This document shows positions 12,285 through 41,316 of a DNA stretch of 41,316 nt, one piece after another. The stretch is from Nitrospirae bacterium GWB2_47_37 (GTDB lineage: Bacteria > Nitrospirota > Thermodesulfovibrionia > Thermodesulfovibrionales > Dissulfurispiraceae). How positions within the stretch are numbered: position 1 is the stretch's first letter; every line of letters begins with the position of its first letter. The stretch lies in the NCBI GenBank assembly GCA_001803635.1, contig MHDU01000037.1, positions 1-41,316 on the forward strand, written 5' to 3'. The notes under the pieces were generated by a model, which saw only the letters and a program-made list of their open reading frames with translations, ran no database searches and was not told where the DNA came from. A program made the translations under genes and the position numbers.

Positions 12285-12295
12285 AAAATCAAACA

Positions 12296-12426
12296 GCAGC
12301 CGAGATCCATTCAAAGAATGGATGCGGGGGACCCAAATTTTGGGGCGTATTCCTTTATGGATAGGGAACTTCCATTCCCGAGCCCGTCAGCTAACCTCGT
12401 AGGCATTTGGAAGGGCAATGGTTAGG
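12296..12426 (+). ncRNA. Cyclic-di-AMP riboswitch (ydaO/yuaA motif)
   Basis: The conserved core is readable: GCAGCCGAGATCC, GCGGGGGACCCA, TGGGGCG, TAGGGAA and the near-invariant CGAGCCCGTCAGCTAACCTCG, then AGGCATTTGG. It is followed at once by an intrinsic terminator and the kimA-like gene. In this class, c-di-AMP binding favours termination. It would therefore act as an OFF switch for potassium import. An Infernal scan against the ydaO-yuaA Rfam model would confirm the boundaries. Confidence 0.92.
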
Positions 12427-12430
12427 AATG

Positions 12431-12456
12431 AAAACCGCCGCCCGGCGGTTTTTTTT
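12431..12456 (+). terminator. Intrinsic terminator of the c-di-AMP riboswitch
   Basis: Stem AACCGCC / GGCGGTT with a GCCC loop followed by eight T. It lies between the riboswitch core and the ribosome site of kimA, as the expression platform. Confidence 0.88.
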
Positions 12457-12493
12457 ATTTCCCTCCGCTTGCCCTCTAAAAAGGAGGAGCAAC

Positions 12494-14305
12494 ATGTCTC
12501 TGAAAAACTTTCTCATCGGCAGTCCTATCGAAACCATTAGAGAGAAACACGAGCGTATATCTAAAAAGGTGGGGCTTGCGGTATTCTCATCCGATCCGCT
12601 CTCATCCGTCGCATACGGAACTGAAGAAATAATGTTCGCCCTTATAGTCGGTGGAACCGCCCTCCTCAATTATACGTTGCCTATTGCCATTGCGATTGTC
12701 ATCACTGTTGCGATTGTGGTCATCTCCTATTATCAGACAATTCACGCGTATTCTTCCGGTGGAGGGGCATATATAGTTGCAAAGGAGAACCTTGGCGTAC
12801 TTCCGGGGCTTATTGCCGGATCAGCCCTCCTCATTGATTATGTTCTCACCGTTACAGTAAGTATTGCTGCAGGCATAGCCGCCATCACCTCGGCGTTTCC
12901 GGCGACCCGCGACTATACCGTTACAATGTGTATTGCATCCATACTTTTTATAAGCATAATAAACCTCAGAGGTGTAAGAGAGTCAGGAAAGGTGTTTTCG
13001 TCACCGGTATATATCTTCATAGGGAGCCTGCTTCTACTCCTTGCTGCAAGCCTTACGAAATCCTTATCGTTTCCGCGCATAGAGTATCGCGAGGTCACGG
13101 GAACGGTAGCAAGTATATTCCCGATGTTCATAATACTGAAGGCCTTCGCCTCAGGTTGCGTCACCCTCACCGGCATCGAGGCAATCTCAAACGGGGTCCG
13201 CGCGTTCAAAGCTCCTGAAGCAAAAAACGCGGGGATAACCCTTGTGTGGATGGCGTTCATGCTTGGCTTTCTTACTATCGGAATAGCTTATTTCGCCAAT
13301 TATTACGGGATACTTCCAAACTCAAACGAGACCGTCGTATCTCAGCTTGCGCGAACTGTATTTTCCAAAGGCGCTGTCTATTATACGATCCAGTTTGCCA
13401 CAATGCTGGTACTCATCCTTGCAGCGAACACTTCGTTTGCGGATTTTCCGAGGCTCTCCTCCATCATGGCAAATGACCGTTATCTGCCGAGACAGTTAGG
13501 CAATCGGGGTGACAAACTCGTATTTTCAAACGGCATCCTGATACTCGGTTTTCTTTCGGCCCTGTTGGTAGTGCTCTTCAGGGGAGATACCCATTCCCTA
13601 ATCCCTCTTTATGCTGTCGGTGTTTTCACAGCCTTTACTTTATCCCAGGCAGGAATGGTCAGGCACTGGTTCAAGGATAAAGGAAGGGGTTGGCGTAAGA
13701 GCGCTGTTATAAACGGCATCGGGGGCATTACCACCGGCGTAGTCCTTGTGGTAATCGCAGTAGAAAAATTCACTCACGGCGCTTGGATAGTGCTCATCGC
13801 CATCCCGGTTCTGGTTTATCTGACACAAAAGGTGCATCAGCATTATCTATCTGTTGCAGACCAGCTTTCTCTCGAAGGCGCTGACACGGGAAGAGAATAT
13901 ACGCATCATTCGGTTATCATACCTGTATCAGGATTGCAGACAGCGGTGTTGAACGCTATTAAGTATGCAAAGGCGCTTTCAGACGATGTGGCTGCGGTTT
14001 ATGTCTGCCTTGATACCGCTGAGATGGAGAAGATGCAGACGAAATGGAAAATTTACGGTATGGGTGTTCCTCTCGTCATCCTGCACTCTCCCTACCGTTC
14101 AATAATCGAGCCTCTTATGGATTACATAGACGGAATCCGCGAGCGCTATGAAGACGGCATTATTACGGTAGTACTGCCGGAGTTCGTGCCGCAGAAGTGG
14201 TGGCATCATCTTCTGCATAACCAGACAGCGCTCCTTCTTAAAGGGATCATTCTGTTTAAAAAAGGAGTCGTATCCACGAGCGTTCCATTGCATCTCAGGA
14301 AATGA
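12494..14305 (+). CDS. kimA: KimA-like potassium importer (APC superfamily)
   Basis: A 603-residue permease resembling Bacillus subtilis KimA (YdaO), a high-affinity proton-coupled potassium importer. It begins MSLKNFLIGSPIET and contains SSDPLSSVAYGTEEI, SYYQTIHAYSSGGGAYIVAKENLG and about 12 hydrophobic segments up to residue about 460, then a cytosolic C-terminal domain. The ATG at 12494 has AAGGAGG upstream and lies beyond the riboswitch terminator. Homologues are often annotated as amino-acid permeases; control by a c-di-AMP riboswitch strongly favours potassium import, as in Bacillus. Confidence 0.88.
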   Translation: MSLKNFLIGSPIETIREKHERISKKVGLAVFSSDPLSSVAYGTEEIMFALIVGGTALLNYTLPIAIAIVITVAIVVISYYQTIHAYSSGGGAYIVAKENLGVLPGLIAGSALLIDYVLTVTVSIAAGIAAITSAFPATRDYTVTMCIASILFISIINLRGVRESGKVFSSPVYIFIGSLLLLLAASLTKSLSFPRIEYREVTGTVASIFPMFIILKAFASGCVTLTGIEAISNGVRAFKAPEAKNAGITLVWMAFMLGFLTIGIAYFANYYGILPNSNETVVSQLARTVFSKGAVYYTIQFATMLVLILAANTSFADFPRLSSIMANDRYLPRQLGNRGDKLVFSNGILILGFLSALLVVLFRGDTHSLIPLYAVGVFTAFTLSQAGMVRHWFKDKGRGWRKSAVINGIGGITTGVVLVVIAVEKFTHGAWIVLIAIPVLVYLTQKVHQHYLSVADQLSLEGADTGREYTHHSVIIPVSGLQTAVLNAIKYAKALSDDVAAVYVCLDTAEMEKMQTKWKIYGMGVPLVILHSPYRSIIEPLMDYIDGIRERYEDGIITVVLPEFVPQKWWHHLLHNQTALLLKGIILFKKGVVSTSVPLHLRK

Positions 14306-14358: not shown

Positions 14359-16089
14359 CTACGTCTTTTCGCCCTTGACCGGCTTTAGCCGTTTCAAAAG
14401 TCTTTCCGAGTCGAGCGTATTCAGCACATCGCCCTTTTCGAGCCAGCCCCGGCGCGCAATGGATACGCCGTATCTCATATAATCGAATTGGTTTGTTACG
14501 TGAGTATCCGTGCTTATAACTAACGGTATTCCCATTTCCTTTGCCCTTTTGGCATAAGCATCATTCAGGTCGAGCCGTAACGGATAGGCATTTATTTCCA
14601 TAGCCGTTCCGGTCTTCTTTGCGGTTCTCAATATCTCATCCATATCCACATCATACGCATCCCTTTCTCCGATAAGCCTTCCTGTGGGATGAGCGATTAT
14701 GCTCACATAGGGATTTTTCATGGCCGATGTCATGCGGTATGTAAGCTGCTTCTTGGACTGCCTGAATCCTGAATGTATGGATGCAACGACAATATCGAGC
14801 TCTTTCAGCAGGTCGTCCGAAAAATCGAGACTCCCGTCGCTGCGTATATCGACCTCAACCCCGTGCAGCACTCTGAAACCCCTAAGTTTTTTATTTATCG
14901 CTACTATCTCCTTTTTCTGCTCAAGGAGCCTCTCGCCGGTCAAGCCGTGCGCTATGCCGAGCCCCTTTGAGTGATCCGTCAGTGCAATGTATGAATAGCC
15001 CCTCTCTTTTGCGGCCTCTATCAATTGCAGGAAGGTATGGCTTCCGTCGCTCCATTTTGAATGGACATGGAGATCGCCCTTTATGTCCTTAATTTCCACA
15101 AGCCCCGGCAGTTTGCCTGCTAAAGCAGCGTCTATCTCTCCCTGATCTTCCCTTAATTCAGGAGGGATGTATGAAAGTCCTAAAATTTTGTAAACATCCT
15201 CCTCTTTTTCTCCGCCGATTTTTTTATCGTCTTTTTCTCGGAATATCCCGTATTCGTTTATTTTAAGCCCCTTCTTCATCGCCATTTCTCTGAGCCTGAT
15301 ATTATGCTCCTTGCTTCCGGTGAAATAGGCAAGAGCGGCCCCGTATGCTTCTTTTTCAACGACCCTCAAATCAACCTGCAACCCCTCATTGATTACGATG
15401 CTGGATTTTGTAGGCCCCTTCATGAGAACCTGTTTTACATTAGGAAGATGCGTAAAAACCTTCATCACTTCTCCGGGATTATCGGATGTCGCAAGAATAT
15501 CGATGTCCTTAATGGTATCCTTCCATCTCCTTAAACTTCCTGCTATGTCTATCTTATTTACAGGAGCGCTCTTCTTAAGGTTTTCGAGGATGTCGTTCGC
15601 CATGGGAAGGACTTTTCCGAGAGGCCGGCGCTCCTTTCCCCTCTTGAGCATCTCTATACCTTTTAAAATATTTTCTTCGGTCTTCTCCTTTATGCCGGGG
15701 AGTCCCGATAATTTATGAGCAATAGCGAGCCTTTCAAGGTCATCTATGCCTTTGATTTTAAGCTCGTCATAAAGCAATTTCGATGTCTTCGGCCCGAGTC
15801 CGGGCACGGAGAGAAGTGTGAGCAACCCTTCGGGAACCTCCCTCTTTAGTTCGTCATGAGCCTGCATCCTTCCAGTCTTTATATATTCTTCAATCTTTCC
15901 GGCAAGGTCATTTCCAATTCCGGGAATCTTCAAAATTTCTTCGCGGGAAACATCTTCTATATTTTTGGACAGACTTTCGATATTCTGCGCGGCCCTTCTG
16001 TATGCCCTTATACGAAAAGGGTTCTCGCCCTTTATTTCAAGAAGCTCCGCGATTTCATCAAATATCTTCGCTATCTCCTGATTTTTCAT
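14359..16089 (-). CDS. polX: Family X DNA polymerase with PHP domain
   Basis: A 576-residue repair polymerase for gap filling, with 3'-5' exonuclease or AP-endonuclease activity in the PHP part. Domains: N-terminal helix-hairpin-helix 8 kDa-type region (residues 1-150, KIPGIGNDLAGKIEE and LSVPGLGPKTSKLL), nucleotidyltransferase palm with GSLRRWKDTIKDIDILA, and PHP domain from about 338 (DLHVHSKWSDGSH) to IAHPTGR and ISTDTHV. The gene ends convergently with kimA, 53 bases away. The 454-base upstream intergenic region has two long inverted repeats. Confidence 0.95.
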   Translation of the reverse strand: MKNQEIAKIFDEIAELLEIKGENPFRIRAYRRAAQNIESLSKNIEDVSREEILKIPGIGNDLAGKIEEYIKTGRMQAHDELKREVPEGLLTLLSVPGLGPKTSKLLYDELKIKGIDDLERLAIAHKLSGLPGIKEKTEENILKGIEMLKRGKERRPLGKVLPMANDILENLKKSAPVNKIDIAGSLRRWKDTIKDIDILATSDNPGEVMKVFTHLPNVKQVLMKGPTKSSIVINEGLQVDLRVVEKEAYGAALAYFTGSKEHNIRLREMAMKKGLKINEYGIFREKDDKKIGGEKEEDVYKILGLSYIPPELREDQGEIDAALAGKLPGLVEIKDIKGDLHVHSKWSDGSHTFLQLIEAAKERGYSYIALTDHSKGLGIAHGLTGERLLEQKKEIVAINKKLRGFRVLHGVEVDIRSDGSLDFSDDLLKELDIVVASIHSGFRQSKKQLTYRMTSAMKNPYVSIIAHPTGRLIGERDAYDVDMDEILRTAKKTGTAMEINAYPLRLDLNDAYAKRAKEMGIPLVISTDTHVTNQFDYMRYGVSIARRGWLEKGDVLNTLDSERLLKRLKPVKGEKT

Positions 16090-16144
16090 ATATTAACCTT
16101 ATACCAATTTCATACGGCATAGTCAAACAATCATCAGGATGTAA

Positions 16145-16294
16145 GGCATACTTCAAAAGCCTTTACTAAGTGTAGTTGCCGGTGCAATCCGGAGATAACC
16201 TTTGTATCATCCAATAAAAAAGCAATGTTGTAGCTCACGAGAAAGAGAATGCTGTTATTACATTACGTATGAGTAAAGGCTTTTTCAGCACGCC
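16145..16294 (-). repeat. Inverted-repeat element 1 (possible structured RNA) upstream of polX
   Basis: Arms at 16145-16167 and 16272-16294: 13 perfect bases (AAAAGCCTTTACT / AGTAAAGGCTTTT) extended by 8 further pairs after a 2-base mismatch. The two imperfect outer pairs become G·U only when read as minus-strand RNA. The 104-base interior has no coding frame. It may be a 5' leader or independent RNA, or a MITE-like element; the strand is tentative. Confidence 0.5.
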
Positions 16295-16335
16295 TCACAT
16301 CACATAACTTGCAATCAAACATTTGAAAGATTTCA

Positions 16336-16505
16336 GCACATAGCGCGGGTCTGCTTCAATGACTTTATCAGCGGAACCCCCTAATCATATTCTCCTATAT
16401 CCGTCCTCCGCATCGGCGCTATCCGCTTGATGAAGCATATATCATCTTTGCTATGCATAAAGAACACCACTTATAAAGGCGTTGAAGCGGACTTGCACTA
16501 TGTGC
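16336..16505 (+). repeat. Inverted-repeat element 2 (possible structured RNA or MITE) upstream of ubiX
   Basis: Arms at 16336-16368 and 16473-16505, 33 bases each. Read as plus-strand RNA, only three positions fail to pair (two mismatches plus one arm-end position) and four pairs are G·U. Inside, AGCGGA (near 16369) pairs with TCCGCT and GCATA with TATGC. No coding frame of note. It sits just before the -10 box of ubiX. Confidence 0.5.
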
Positions 16506-16532
16506 CGTTCGGATATGATCTGTGATATTTAG

Positions 16533-16543: not shown

Positions 16544-17125
16544 ATGAAACGATACATACTCGCAATAACAGGCGCGAGCGGCTCGATATTCGGAGTAAAA
16601 CTGCTTGAGGAACTGCTTAAAACCGCCGAGGTTCATCTTGCAATATCATCGAATACCTTTCCCATAATTAAAGACGAGACTGGCATCGACTGGTCGGAAG
16701 ATACAGAAAACAAAATTAGAAAGCATTTCAACATGAAAAGGCTGTTTTTCTATGAAGACAAGCATATGGAAGCGCCCATAGCGAGCGGCTCGTTCAAGAC
16801 GGACGGAATGTTTGTTGTCCCATGCACAATGAAGACCTTGGCAGGCATCGCAAACGGCTATGCTAACAATCTAATTGAAAGGGCTGCGGATGTAACTATA
16901 AAAGAAGGAAGGCCACTACTTCTCTGTCCGCGCGAAATGCCTTTCAGCGCCATACACCTTGAGAATATGCTCAAGCTTGCAAGGCTCGGCGTCAAGATAG
17001 CGCCGCCTGTTCCTGCCTTTTATCACAAGCCGAAAAGCTTGGACGATATAGTGAGCTTTATTGTCGGAAAAATGCTGGACGCCTTCGACATCGAGCATAC
17101 ATTATTTAAGAGATGGGGAAGTTGA
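16544..17125 (+). CDS. ubiX: Flavin prenyltransferase UbiX
   Basis: Makes the prenylated FMN cofactor used by UbiD-type decarboxylases. 193 residues, normal length. Hallmarks: AITGASGSIFGVKLLEEL nucleotide-binding start, SNTFPIIKDETG, APIASGSFKTDGMFVVPCTMKTLAGIANGYANNLIERAADVTIKEGRPLLLCPREMPFS (key blocks ASGS, PCTM, PREMP). No UbiD partner lies in this window. No Shine-Dalgarno; a TATAAT lies just upstream. Confidence 0.95.
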   Translation: MKRYILAITGASGSIFGVKLLEELLKTAEVHLAISSNTFPIIKDETGIDWSEDTENKIRKHFNMKRLFFYEDKHMEAPIASGSFKTDGMFVVPCTMKTLAGIANGYANNLIERAADVTIKEGRPLLLCPREMPFSAIHLENMLKLARLGVKIAPPVPAFYHKPKSLDDIVSFIVGKMLDAFDIEHTLFKRWGS

Positions 17126-17162
17126 ATAGAAGCTGACACTGGATTATTGTTTGAAATTTCTT

Positions 17163-17168
17163 TATAAT
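17163..17168 (+). promoter_or_regulatory. -10 box of the restriction-modification gene
   Basis: A consensus TATAAT 12 bases before the ATG at 17181, with no ribosome site between, predicts a leader of only about six bases. No clear -35. Confidence 0.4.
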
Positions 17169-17180
17169 CCTTGTAGTTAT

Positions 17181-20100
17181 ATGCCGAAACAAAAAATTAT
17201 CAGTCTGATTCAATCACTTGGTTTCCAAAATGAAACCTCGAAGGACATCTTTGTCAGGGAATATAAAAAACACAACTACACAATTACTATCGATACTCAA
17301 AAGGAAAAAATTTCTTATCCTGCACCTATTCAAGTAGGCGACAAAACCACCTGTAATTTTTTACGTCCTGAAAACTTTGTAGTCCTTGAATGTGTTGACC
17401 GGTTACTTAAAAAAGGTTATCGGCCAAAAGACCTTTATCTCGAAAAAAAATGGTCGCTGGGGCGGACTCAAAAAAGCGGAAAAGCTGATATAACGATTCA
17501 AAATGGCGGCGGGAATACAATACTGATAATTGAATGCAAAGTCTGTGGGCAGGAATACGAAAAAGGGAAAAGCAGAATGCAGGCCAATGGAGGCCAGCTT
17601 TTCAGTTATCTGCAACAGGATAGAAATACAAAATTCCTTTGTTTGTATACATCTGCACTGTCTGAACAAGGCGTTAAATATGAAAATGCCATCGTCCGCA
17701 TAGAAGATGATGATAAACTCAGAGAGCAGTTCGAGAAAGGGAACGAAGACATCAAGCTTTATGTGAACGCAAAAACGGTTGAGGAACTGCATCAGGTCTG
17801 GAAAGAAAATTACAGTTGTTACTTCCATCCAAACGGGATTTTTGAAGAAGATGTTCAACCTTATAAGATTGACCTTAAACCGCTAAAGATCAAAGATCTG
17901 AAGCAGTTGAAAGAGGGCGACGGCAGCTTCATTCATAACCAGTTTGCCGAAATCCTAAGGCATAATAATATCTCTGATAAGGAAAACGCCTTCAATAAGA
18001 TGATTTCACTTTTCCTCTGCAAGGTTGTTGATGAGAGCAAGGAGTCCAATGAGGTAGTGGATTTCCAATGGAAAGAAGGAATAGACAACTACGAAGACCT
18101 TCAGGACCGTATTCAGAAATTATATCAAAAAGGCATGAAGGAATACCTTAAAGAGGAGATCATTTATTTCGAAAACGACTATGTTGAAAAGGCATTCAGA
18201 TACCATAAAAAAGCGGTCGCTAAAGACAAGATGACCAGGATGCTGAAGGCACTCAAGTTCTATACAAACAATGAGTTTGCCTTTAAAGAGGTCCACAACG
18301 AGAAACTGTTCGAACAGAACGCAAAGGTAGTAAACGAGGTTGTACAGCTTTTGCAGCCTTATCGCATTAAGTATTCGCAGAAACAGCAATTCCTCGGCAA
18401 TCTCTTCGAATTATTGCTGAACGACGGACTCAAGCAGTCTGAAGGCCAGTTTTTCACCCCTGTTCCGATTACACGCTTTATAGTTTCGTCCTTGCCGATC
18501 CATGACTTTATTTCAGACCGCTGGAAAAAAGGCGAAGTTCATCTCTTGCCTAGAGTTGTAGATTATGCCTGCGGCAGCGGTCATTTTCTTACGGAAGCGA
18601 TTGATGAGATTCAGGGGGTTATTGGAAACCTTGGCATGAGTCAACACAGGGATGATACACGGTGGGCAAAGGATTATATTTTCGGGATAGAAAAAGATTA
18701 TCGCCTGGCGCGTATCTCCAAAATTGCCTGTTTCCTGAACGGCGCAGGGGATGCGAATATTATTTACGGTGACGGCCTTGAAGGTCATGACCAACTAAGT
18801 GAAACCGAGGGATTCGATATCCTAATTGCAAATCCACCTTATTCCATTAAGGATTTCAAACAACATCTTCCAGTCAAGCGTCTCAATTTTGAGTTGCTGG
18901 ATTATCTTTCCGATACTGCAAGCGAAATTGAGACTCTATTTGTCGAGCGCATTGCGCAACTTTTGAGGCCGGGAGGAATGGCCGGGGTAATCCTGCCAAG
19001 TTCGATTTTGAGCAACAGCGGCATATATACCCGCGCTCGTGAAGTTATCTTAAAAAATTTCCATATCAGGGCCATTGTTGAACTCGGCGGGCAAACATTT
19101 ATAGCCACTAACACAAATACGGTTATACTCTTCCTTCAGAAACATATAAATGGTGACAACCAGCACTTTGCTTATCGCGCCGATGCTATCTATGATGAAC
19201 AGCAATTGGATGACGCGGAATATCTTGACGGCCATATGCTTCATGGATATTGCAGACAGATTAGCGTTGATTATGATGATTATGTAAGTCTCATACAAAG
19301 AAAACCGTCTGATTCTCTCAGAAAAAATGAGTTTCTCACAGCTTATCAAAAATGGTTTGATGGGCTGACCGAGATCAATAACCTGAAAAGTCAGGCGTCT
19401 TTTCAAAAAAGAGACAAAGAAGATATAAGGCTGGAGCTTAATCGTCTCTTCCTGGATAAGGTTATTGCGAAGGAAAAGGAGAAATTCTATTTCTTCTGCC
19501 TTGCATACGGGCAGCATGTGGTACTTGTAAAAGCAGGCGACAAAGATAAAGAGAAGGCATTCCTCGGTTACGAATGGAGCAAGCGTCGAGGGTATGAAGG
19601 GATGAAGGTCATCGGCCCCGGCAAGCTCTGCGATAAGAATGACTTCAATAATTCCGAAAGGTGCAATAGCTATATAAGACAGACTTTTTTGGGGAAAGCG
19701 ATTGATTCAATTCATGAGTCAGCTGCCGAGCATGTCAGCACTGCAAGGCTTATAGATATGATGGACTTTTCACGGATTGAATTTGATAAGCAGATAGGAC
19801 TAAGCCTCAAAAGCAAAATTATTGGAAAAAGTCGCTGGCCGTTAGAAAAATTAGGGGAATTGGCCATTTTCCTGAAAAGAGGTAAATCACCTTCTTACGG
19901 AGCATCTAGCATTCAAATAATTAAATCCGGCCAAGCAAGAGGTTATTTCTCTTTTGATTTCACAAAGCAATTTTTCGTTGATAGCAGTTTTGTACTAGAT
20001 GAAAGAAAGCTCGAAAAGGGGGATATCCTCATAAATTCAACTGGTGTTGGTACAGCGGGGCGAGTCACCTATTTTGATTTGGATGGTGATTTTGTTGTCG

Positions 20101-20936
20101 ATAGTCATATTACTATTTTTCGTCCTGATAGGAGCAAAGTGCTTCCCAAGTATGCCTTATATGCACTTGCAAGGATTGGCTTCAAGAATATTGAAGGTTT
20201 AGCCCAGGGCCAAAGCGGGCAAATTGAACTATCGTTATCAATAATAGAAAGCCTTCAAATACCTATTCCTCCCCTTGATATACAGAAGACAATCATTGAA
20301 GAAATGGAGACGGTGGAGAAACAGGCAGAAAAGGATAGGCAAGTTATTGAAGAGTTACAGACTGGCCTAAGTGATATTATCAAGAGCTTCAGTAAGACGC
20401 GACGTATCAATGAAGTCTTCACCATGTCCGATAACAAGGTTGATCCTGGAAGAAGACCGGATGATGATTTCTCTTATATTGGGCTTGAGCACATCGATAG
20501 TAATAGCGGCACACTACTTGAAAAAGTCACAGTGAAAGGCTCAACACTCAAGAGTTCAAAAAACAGCTTTTGCAAAGGGAATTTACTATATGGAAAGTTG
20601 CGGCCATATCTGAATAAAGTTTATCTTGCCGAGTTTGATGGTGTTTGTTCAACAGATATTCTTGTCCTCAAGCCTCACAATGGAATAATTCTTAAACATA
20701 TTCTCCTTAGCAAGCCCTTTGTCGAAAAGGCATCTTCTCTCATGAAGGGAGCAAGCCTGCCAAGAATCGGCGTCAAGGATTTCATGAATTTGACGATAAA
20801 ATATCCTGATGAAAAGAGCCAAGCGGATGTTGTTAAGGAGCTTCTGAATTATGAGCATCGCATCGCTGAACTGAAATCTCAAATAGCAGAGGCCGAATCA
20901 AAAAAAATTGCTATACTGGATAAATATTTGAAATAA
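17181..20936 (+). CDS. Single-chain restriction-modification-specificity enzyme (AloI-like, Type IIG/IIB)
   Basis: A 1251-residue enzyme combining nuclease, methyltransferase and DNA recognition. Residues about 1-210 form an HsdR-N/PD-(D/E)XK nuclease (GKAD about 102, then IIECK with Glu118 and Lys120). About 390-690 is an N6-adenine methyltransferase (SAM motif DYACGSGHF at 461; catalytic NPPY at 551-554). From about 885 and 1070 two HsdS-like target-recognition domains follow, each ending in a coiled coil (IPPLDIQKTI..., YPDEKSQADVV...), implying a bipartite recognition site. No helicase domain, so not Type I. Size and order match AloI/CjeI-type enzymes, which cut on both sides of their site. 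BrnT follows 24 bases downstream. AT-richer than its neighbours, suggesting transfer. Confidence 0.88.
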   Translation: MPKQKIISLIQSLGFQNETSKDIFVREYKKHNYTITIDTQKEKISYPAPIQVGDKTTCNFLRPENFVVLECVDRLLKKGYRPKDLYLEKKWSLGRTQKSGKADITIQNGGGNTILIIECKVCGQEYEKGKSRMQANGGQLFSYLQQDRNTKFLCLYTSALSEQGVKYENAIVRIEDDDKLREQFEKGNEDIKLYVNAKTVEELHQVWKENYSCYFHPNGIFEEDVQPYKIDLKPLKIKDLKQLKEGDGSFIHNQFAEILRHNNISDKENAFNKMISLFLCKVVDESKESNEVVDFQWKEGIDNYEDLQDRIQKLYQKGMKEYLKEEIIYFENDYVEKAFRYHKKAVAKDKMTRMLKALKFYTNNEFAFKEVHNEKLFEQNAKVVNEVVQLLQPYRIKYSQKQQFLGNLFELLLNDGLKQSEGQFFTPVPITRFIVSSLPIHDFISDRWKKGEVHLLPRVVDYACGSGHFLTEAIDEIQGVIGNLGMSQHRDDTRWAKDYIFGIEKDYRLARISKIACFLNGAGDANIIYGDGLEGHDQLSETEGFDILIANPPYSIKDFKQHLPVKRLNFELLDYLSDTASEIETLFVERIAQLLRPGGMAGVILPSSILSNSGIYTRAREVILKNFHIRAIVELGGQTFIATNTNTVILFLQKHINGDNQHFAYRADAIYDEQQLDDAEYLDGHMLHGYCRQISVDYDDYVSLIQRKPSDSLRKNEFLTAYQKWFDGLTEINNLKSQASFQKRDKEDIRLELNRLFLDKVIAKEKEKFYFFCLAYGQHVVLVKAGDKDKEKAFLGYEWSKRRGYEGMKVIGPGKLCDKNDFNNSERCNSYIRQTFLGKAIDSIHESAAEHVSTARLIDMMDFSRIEFDKQIGLSLKSKIIGKSRWPLEKLGELAIFLKRGKSPSYGASSIQIIKSGQARGYFSFDFTKQFFVDSSFVLDERKLEKGDILINSTGVGTAGRVTYFDLDGDFVVDSHITIFRPDRSKVLPKYALYALARIGFKNIEGLAQGQSGQIELSLSIIESLQIPIPPLDIQKTIIEEMETVEKQAEKDRQVIEELQTGLSDIIKSFSKTRRINEVFTMSDNKVDPGRRPDDDFSYIGLEHIDSNSGTLLEKVTVKGSTLKSSKNSFCKGNLLYGKLRPYLNKVYLAEFDGVCSTDILVLKPHNGIILKHILLSKPFVEKASSLMKGASLPRIGVKDFMNLTIKYPDEKSQADVVKELLNYEHRIAELKSQIAEAESKKIAILDKYLK

Positions 20937-41189: not shown

Positions 41190-41245
41190 GTAAAAAGTTT
41201 GACAAAATATGGGAAGAGGGAGAGCAGAGGAGGAAAGGATAAAGA

Positions 41246-41316
41246 GGTCAAGGCTCACGGTCAATTAGTACTGGTAAGCTGAACACATTACTGTGCTTAC
41301 ACCTCCAGCCTATCGA
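41246..41316 (-). rRNA. rrl: 23S ribosomal RNA, 3' end (partial)
   Basis: The reverse complement reads GATAGGCTGG...GTGTAAGC, ...CAGCTTACCAGTACTAATTG and ...GTGAGCCTTGACC, the characteristic 3' end of bacterial 23S rRNA. It runs off the end of the window, and the 3' end is set by this pattern only. Confidence 0.93.

Follow-up and report, generated by a model that had tools for sequence, protein, structure and literature searches.

Head-to-head MITE-like insertions carrying a strand-biased hairpin in the polX-ubiX gap of a Nitrospirota genome

The window analysed here is a stretch of 41,316 nucleotides of contig MHDU01000037.1 from Nitrospirae bacterium GWB2_47_37. In it, the divergent genes polX and ubiX are separated by 454 bases (polX starts at 16089 on the minus strand, ubiX at 16544 on the plus strand), and the gap holds a composite of two repeat units, each of which points outward to one of the genes. 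The features of the locus, in window positions, are as follows.

14359–16089, minus strand: polX, flanking gene (ORF of 576 aa; the ortholog in the relative G001 adjoins ubiX)
16118–16519, no strand assigned: whole composite, two units placed head to head (its outer limits deduced from the worn terminal repeats)
16129–16301, minus strand (structure-bearing): element 1, a type E1 unit (repeat limits against other copies)
16137–16167, minus strand: 3' arm of element 1 on its own strand (inverted repeat; pairing across 22 copies)
16168–16271, minus strand: core (loop) of element 1, conserved and non-coding (alignments; flat codon-position variation)
16272–16302, minus strand: 5' arm of element 1 on its own strand (inverted repeat; pairing across 22 copies)
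16302–16335, no strand assigned: spacer between the two units, common to most composites (alignment of ten composites)
16336–16505, plus strand (structure-bearing): element 2, a type E2 unit (repeat limits against other copies)
16336–16368, plus strand: 5' arm of element 2 (33-pair stem in 22 copies)
16369–16472, plus strand: core (loop) of element 2 (alignments; without a consensus fold)
16473–16505, plus strand: 3' arm of element 2 (33-pair stem in 22 copies)
16544–17125, plus strand: ubiX, flanking gene (ORF of 193 aa; orthologs in six relatives)

Elsewhere in the window, a c-di-AMP riboswitch (ydaO/yuaA leader, RF00379, 88.4 bits) lies at 12288–12420 on the plus strand, with a large transporter-like ORF (12407–14305) directly downstream of it. 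An ORF of 1261 aa on the plus strand (17151–20936), downstream of ubiX, resembles a fused restriction-modification protein; by eye, it contains the N-6 methylase motif NPPY and a specificity-like C-terminus. The end of the contig falls inside a 23S rRNA gene (41244–41316, minus strand).

Both strands of the polX-ubiX gap fold better than dinucleotide shuffles, with z values of −3.8 and −5.4. A first-pass annotation of the window had described two hairpin-forming elements in the gap, which was right and even understated. The inverted repeats are real: that of element 1 joins 16138–16167 to 16272–16301 (30 nt, 83% complementary) and that of element 2 joins 16336–16374 to 16467–16505 (39 nt, 79% complementary). 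The arm length given for element 1 needed revision, the 23 bases reported being the inner part of an arm of ~30 bp. The motifs CTTCAA, CTTTA, TAAAGGC and TTTCAGCAC, listed in that annotation as common to both elements, each occur in both. Its suggestion of a single diverged family was likewise borne out: the cores of elements 1 and 2 align on homologous strands, and one covariance model (R1, comprising the core and 14 inner pairs) matches element 1 at 16151–16289 on the minus strand (119.8 bits) and element 2 at 16352–16488 on the plus strand (126.9 bits).

The search for dispersed genomic copies that had been proposed beforehand revealed a sizeable repeat family. BLAST of the gap against its own genome returned 48 places, the gap itself included; these comprise nine additional copies of the complete pair at 78–86% identity, which are head-to-head composites of the same kind, and numerous copies or fragments of one half or the other. 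The R1 model yielded 73 matches in this genome, 20 to 81 matches per genome in five genomes of genera g3 and g6, and at least 32 in each of two congeners. Across the phylum, the family was detected in 8 of 396 genomes and 3 of 170 genera, all within one Nitrospirota family, with strict filters that could miss weak relatives. Named relatives with exact matches are FK1.bin72 and NC_groundwater_1709, both MAGs of an uncultured 'Nitrospirae bacterium', and a search of viral contigs with one exact core pattern, a weak test, gave 0 matches. Alignment of the copies placed element 1 (minus strand), element 2 (plus strand) and a third type, a frequent neighbour of element 1, in one family; the three types have a common core closed by CTTTA/TAAAG and unlike outer arms. 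The copies are intergenic; judged by eye, they occur alone or two together among ordinary genes.

Some loci resemble the family less closely. L180, in the same genome, is a weak model match (33.7 bits) that resembles units of ~330 bp in G007, a closed genome of genus g6. There, L224, L232 and L233 carry type I ends around a different, related-looking hairpin, L224 and L233 being ~330 bp long.

The core measures ~105 nt (range 104–114) and is better conserved between subfamilies than the outer arms. RNAalifold returned no consensus fold of the core for either 33 or 50 sequences, an uncommon result for a structured RNA. Many cores (e.g. L146, L153, L167 and L185) are crossed by an open frame, about ...KNIYLVSVIYNIGYLLDDAFIISHIHLNQHFLKSL... 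(for example RKDFKPRTCKNIYLVSVIYNIGYLL...), with fewer stops than the other frames. A coding core was nevertheless rejected: variation is flat over codon positions, the lengths have no period of three, and searches against Pfam and NCBIfam found nothing significant. The first-pass annotation had recognised no known RNA family in the gap, and a search of the whole window with Rfam agrees, no model reaching its gathering score there. In e-value mode a single weak match appeared in the gap (mir-9465, 17 bits, E 0.89), which is a chance match. 6S RNA and other known Rfam RNAs were rejected on the basis of these gathering-score and permissive scans; the earlier suggestion of small RNAs of 6S-like length also disagrees with the 73 copies and with a core that has no consensus structure.

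The origin of the oversized gap is apparent from the closest relative that has the locus. In G001, a congener, only ~65 bp separate the divergent polX (92% identity) and ubiX (90%), and the element is absent. Intact copies in relatives are bounded by terminal inverted repeats, CCATAATCCGTA...TACGGATTATGG or CCYAAATTGAGCGATT...AATCGCTCAATTTRGG, and are flanked by AT-rich target-site duplications of 5–6 bp (examples are TAATGA, AAATGA, ATGTTT, GATTTT, TAATA and TTTTA). In 33 bounded units, the identity of the two flanks was 0.479 at 5 bp, compared with 0.369 after permutation (p 0.0025), and 0.500 at 6 bp, compared with 0.342 (0 of 2000 permutations reached this value); no excess was seen at 2–4 or 8–9 bp. 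At the window's pair itself the ends are worn and a target-site duplication is not visible; its outer sequences, CATAGTCAAACAATCATC (16118–16135) and GTTCGGATATGAT (16507–16519), resemble the ends CATAATCCGTAATCATC and TTACGGATTATG of other copies. Several properties expected of a MITE were found, namely short (<~500 bp), non-coding, dispersed units with terminal repeats, a duplicated target and an empty orthologous site. We therefore conclude with high confidence that the pair represents lineage-specific MITE-like insertions, which explains the oversized gap; of the possibilities first raised for the elements, that of degenerate MITEs is the one that these dispersed copies, intact ends, duplications and empty gap uphold.

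In one copy of the same genome (L014) the loop is deleted, and the genome G030 contains units of ~80 bp that have identical terminal repeats and lack the hairpin module. In the G030 units L237–L240, a short GC-rich palindrome, CCTGTCTGCGTGCAACGCACAGGCAGG, replaces the module; 102 such termini occur in that genome. At L234 (G007:C1, ~1491320), a short unit with type II ends adjoins a CRISPR-like array with the repeat GTTTCAGTCCCTGACGTCAGGGATGTCCGCTGGGAC and unique spacers.

The distribution of the copies also bears on the proposal that the elements form a cis-regulatory leader of polX or ubiX. Such a role would suit a composite between divergent genes whose units read outward to each of them, but the G001 gap lacks the element and tens of family copies adjoin unrelated genes. 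An ancestral leader of either gene was rejected on these two grounds. Furthermore, the structure-bearing strand of solo copies between tandem genes, as judged from rough ORF calls, is antisense in 26 cases and sense in 7 (p 0.0013; the solo copies include L132, L138, L146 and L166), which argues against leader function. We consider a leader highly improbable, and the polX leader that the first-pass annotation raised as a possibility is not supported. The antisense excess is compatible with selection against hairpins within mRNAs or with an antisense transcript of the element's own.

The sequence of the closing stem changes between copies while its pairing is retained. In 22 copies of element 2, 93% of the cells of the 33-pair stem are paired and 12 pairs have changed on both sides. 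In a dereplicated set of 52 stems, drawn from three genera, standard pairs make up 82% of positions, compared with 61% in shuffled and about 40–43% in slid arms, and double-changed cells number 407 against 162 in the shuffles; since the shuffles ignore relatedness, the size of this covariation signal is approximate. The mismatches are strongly biased. Arm mismatches had been said to become G·U on the minus strand for element 1 and on the plus strand for element 2, and this holds in 22 copies of each (60 G·U against 3 A·C and 79 against 11, respectively). A strand-neutral alignment of 120 stems gave G·T:A·C counts of 304:46 and G·A:C·T counts of 248:10; with one representative for each of 18 arm clusters, the counts were 36:13 and 40:2. 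Many subfamilies contain a tandem G·A in the stem, where element 2 has normal pairs. A covarying structure on one strand, as demanded of a structured RNA, is hence found for the closing stem.

Complementary arms could also stem from ordinary MITE biology, through descent from a palindrome and homogenisation at the DNA level by template switching or gene conversion, and quasi-palindrome correction can indeed restore complementarity without selection. Homogenisation of the arms, however, predicts no strand preference among the mismatches, in conflict with the ratios of 36:13 and 40:2 per arm cluster, and we regard this explanation as unlikely. It rather appears, judging from these sequence patterns, that a folded single strand, either RNA or ssDNA, is under selection. 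In a usual MITE the ends are the conserved part and the interior drifts. Here compensatory change on one strand maintains the inner stem, and conservation is better in the loop, which likewise suggests selection on a single-stranded form. We have good confidence that compensatory and strand-biased changes preserve the hairpin, an uncommon behaviour for a MITE.

Taken together, these data make it very probable that the gap holds a composite insertion of MITE-like units, moved in trans, whose hairpin is kept for its single-stranded form. According to this model, the gap grew through the insertion of a head-to-head pair of copies of a MITE-like, non-autonomous element. A full unit measures ~210 bp and runs from one terminal inverted repeat through the 5' spacer (~10–14 nt), an imperfect arm of ~30 bp, the core of ~105 nt and the second arm to the other terminal repeat; units insert into intergenic DNA with duplication of 5–6 bp. 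The units would be moved in trans by a transposase that recognises the CC-starting termini, most likely one of IS1380 type, and the hairpin would be retained since its single-stranded form, most probably a transcript, has a function or is required for the spread of the element.

The nature of this single-stranded form can be argued in two ways. One candidate is a structured ncRNA that moves with the units: it would be transcribed off the structure-bearing strand and act in trans or in cis, with the MITE ends as its vehicle; this reading extends the MITE-like explanation and does not oppose it. The strand-specific compensatory changes, the mismatch bias and the conserved core speak for such an RNA, as does the existence of MITE-derived sRNAs in Coxiella burnetii (PMC5896051). 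Against it, a simple promoter and terminator scan of the gap found no consensus site and nothing above shuffles, the core is without structure, and ssDNA would leave identical signs. We consider a mobile RNA quite possible, if short of probable. The structured RNA suggested at the outset has accordingly gained strong covariation and strand bias in its favour, but these are signs that ssDNA is expected to leave as well. Under that second possibility, one DNA strand would fold at some step of the element's replication or transposition. Such a requirement would account for the strand bias equally well and suit a mobile element without an expressed product, and G·T and tandem sheared G·A pairs are tolerated in DNA hairpins too. 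However, the 80-bp units with the same ends and no hairpin module have spread as well, so movement does not depend on the module, and duplications of 5–6 bp point to double-strand cut-and-join instead of a single-strand mechanism. A hairpin required as ssDNA therefore seems rather doubtful to us. For the hairpin kept in MITE-like units, RNA is our leading guess, made from sequence comparison. More tentatively, the units might constitute a mobile structured RNA family that is absent from Rfam: a transposon-borne ncRNA gene, present in 20–80 or more copies per genome of one Nitrospirota family, with a covarying closing stem and a conserved unpaired core of ~105 nt. This core would act as RNA, for instance by targeting other transcripts in trans or by partnering a transposition protein. 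Whether bacterial MITEs can carry working RNAs becomes directly testable in this clade, where natural variants number in the hundreds.

As for the mobilising transposase, an IS1380-type enzyme is our best guess. CC-starting termini combined with duplications of 5–6 bp recall elements of that type, and an IS1380-like element of G007 has the termini CCCAAATTGCGAAGGG, the first nine bases of which equal those of type II units, and TTTAAA flanks. Profile searches with PF01609 and PF13701 found no match in the genome of the window or in G004, and among the positions listed no pair of exact ends lay at the distance expected of an autonomous IS with identical ends. Many contig ends of G004 and G030 lie close to such termini. 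The IS1380 family itself encodes a transposase, and only the outermost bases match the present units.

Several known systems invite comparison. REP/BIME hairpins often occur paired, in inverted orientation and between genes; REP units measure ~20–40 nt and are not known to have a target-site duplication. In this they are unlike the present units of ~210 bp, with their terminal repeats and duplications of 5–6 bp. Integron attC sites were considered because one strand folds; these are defined by an R'/R'' core (RYYYAAC/GTTRRRY) and a cassette arrangement. Small mobile repeats whose transcripts form hairpins are already known (reviewed in PMC2229807). Correia/NEMIS, ERIC, RUP and RPE repeats resemble the present family in being ~100–200 bp long and intergenic with terminal repeats, and they give long stem-loop transcripts, with target-site duplications for several of them (PMC2229807). 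Their ends are typically TA, whereas those of the present family start with CC, and its arms vary between subfamilies, with better conservation in the loop than in the arms. The MITE families QMITE1 and QMITE2 of C. burnetii (PMC5896051), some copies of which are sources of small RNAs, are also alike in having ~50 copies, direct as well as terminal repeats, and stable hairpins. QMITE2 is 150–190 bp long with full and small forms, a likeness by description. Direct repeats in these families measure 2–3 or 7–11 nt as opposed to the 5–6 of the present family, and the part of PMC5896051 used here mentions neither stem compensation across subfamilies nor strand-biased mismatches. Undescribed in the open-licence literature searched, the present family is set apart from these systems by its CC ends and its duplications of 5–6 bp, and above all by arms that change between subfamilies with pairing kept on one strand.
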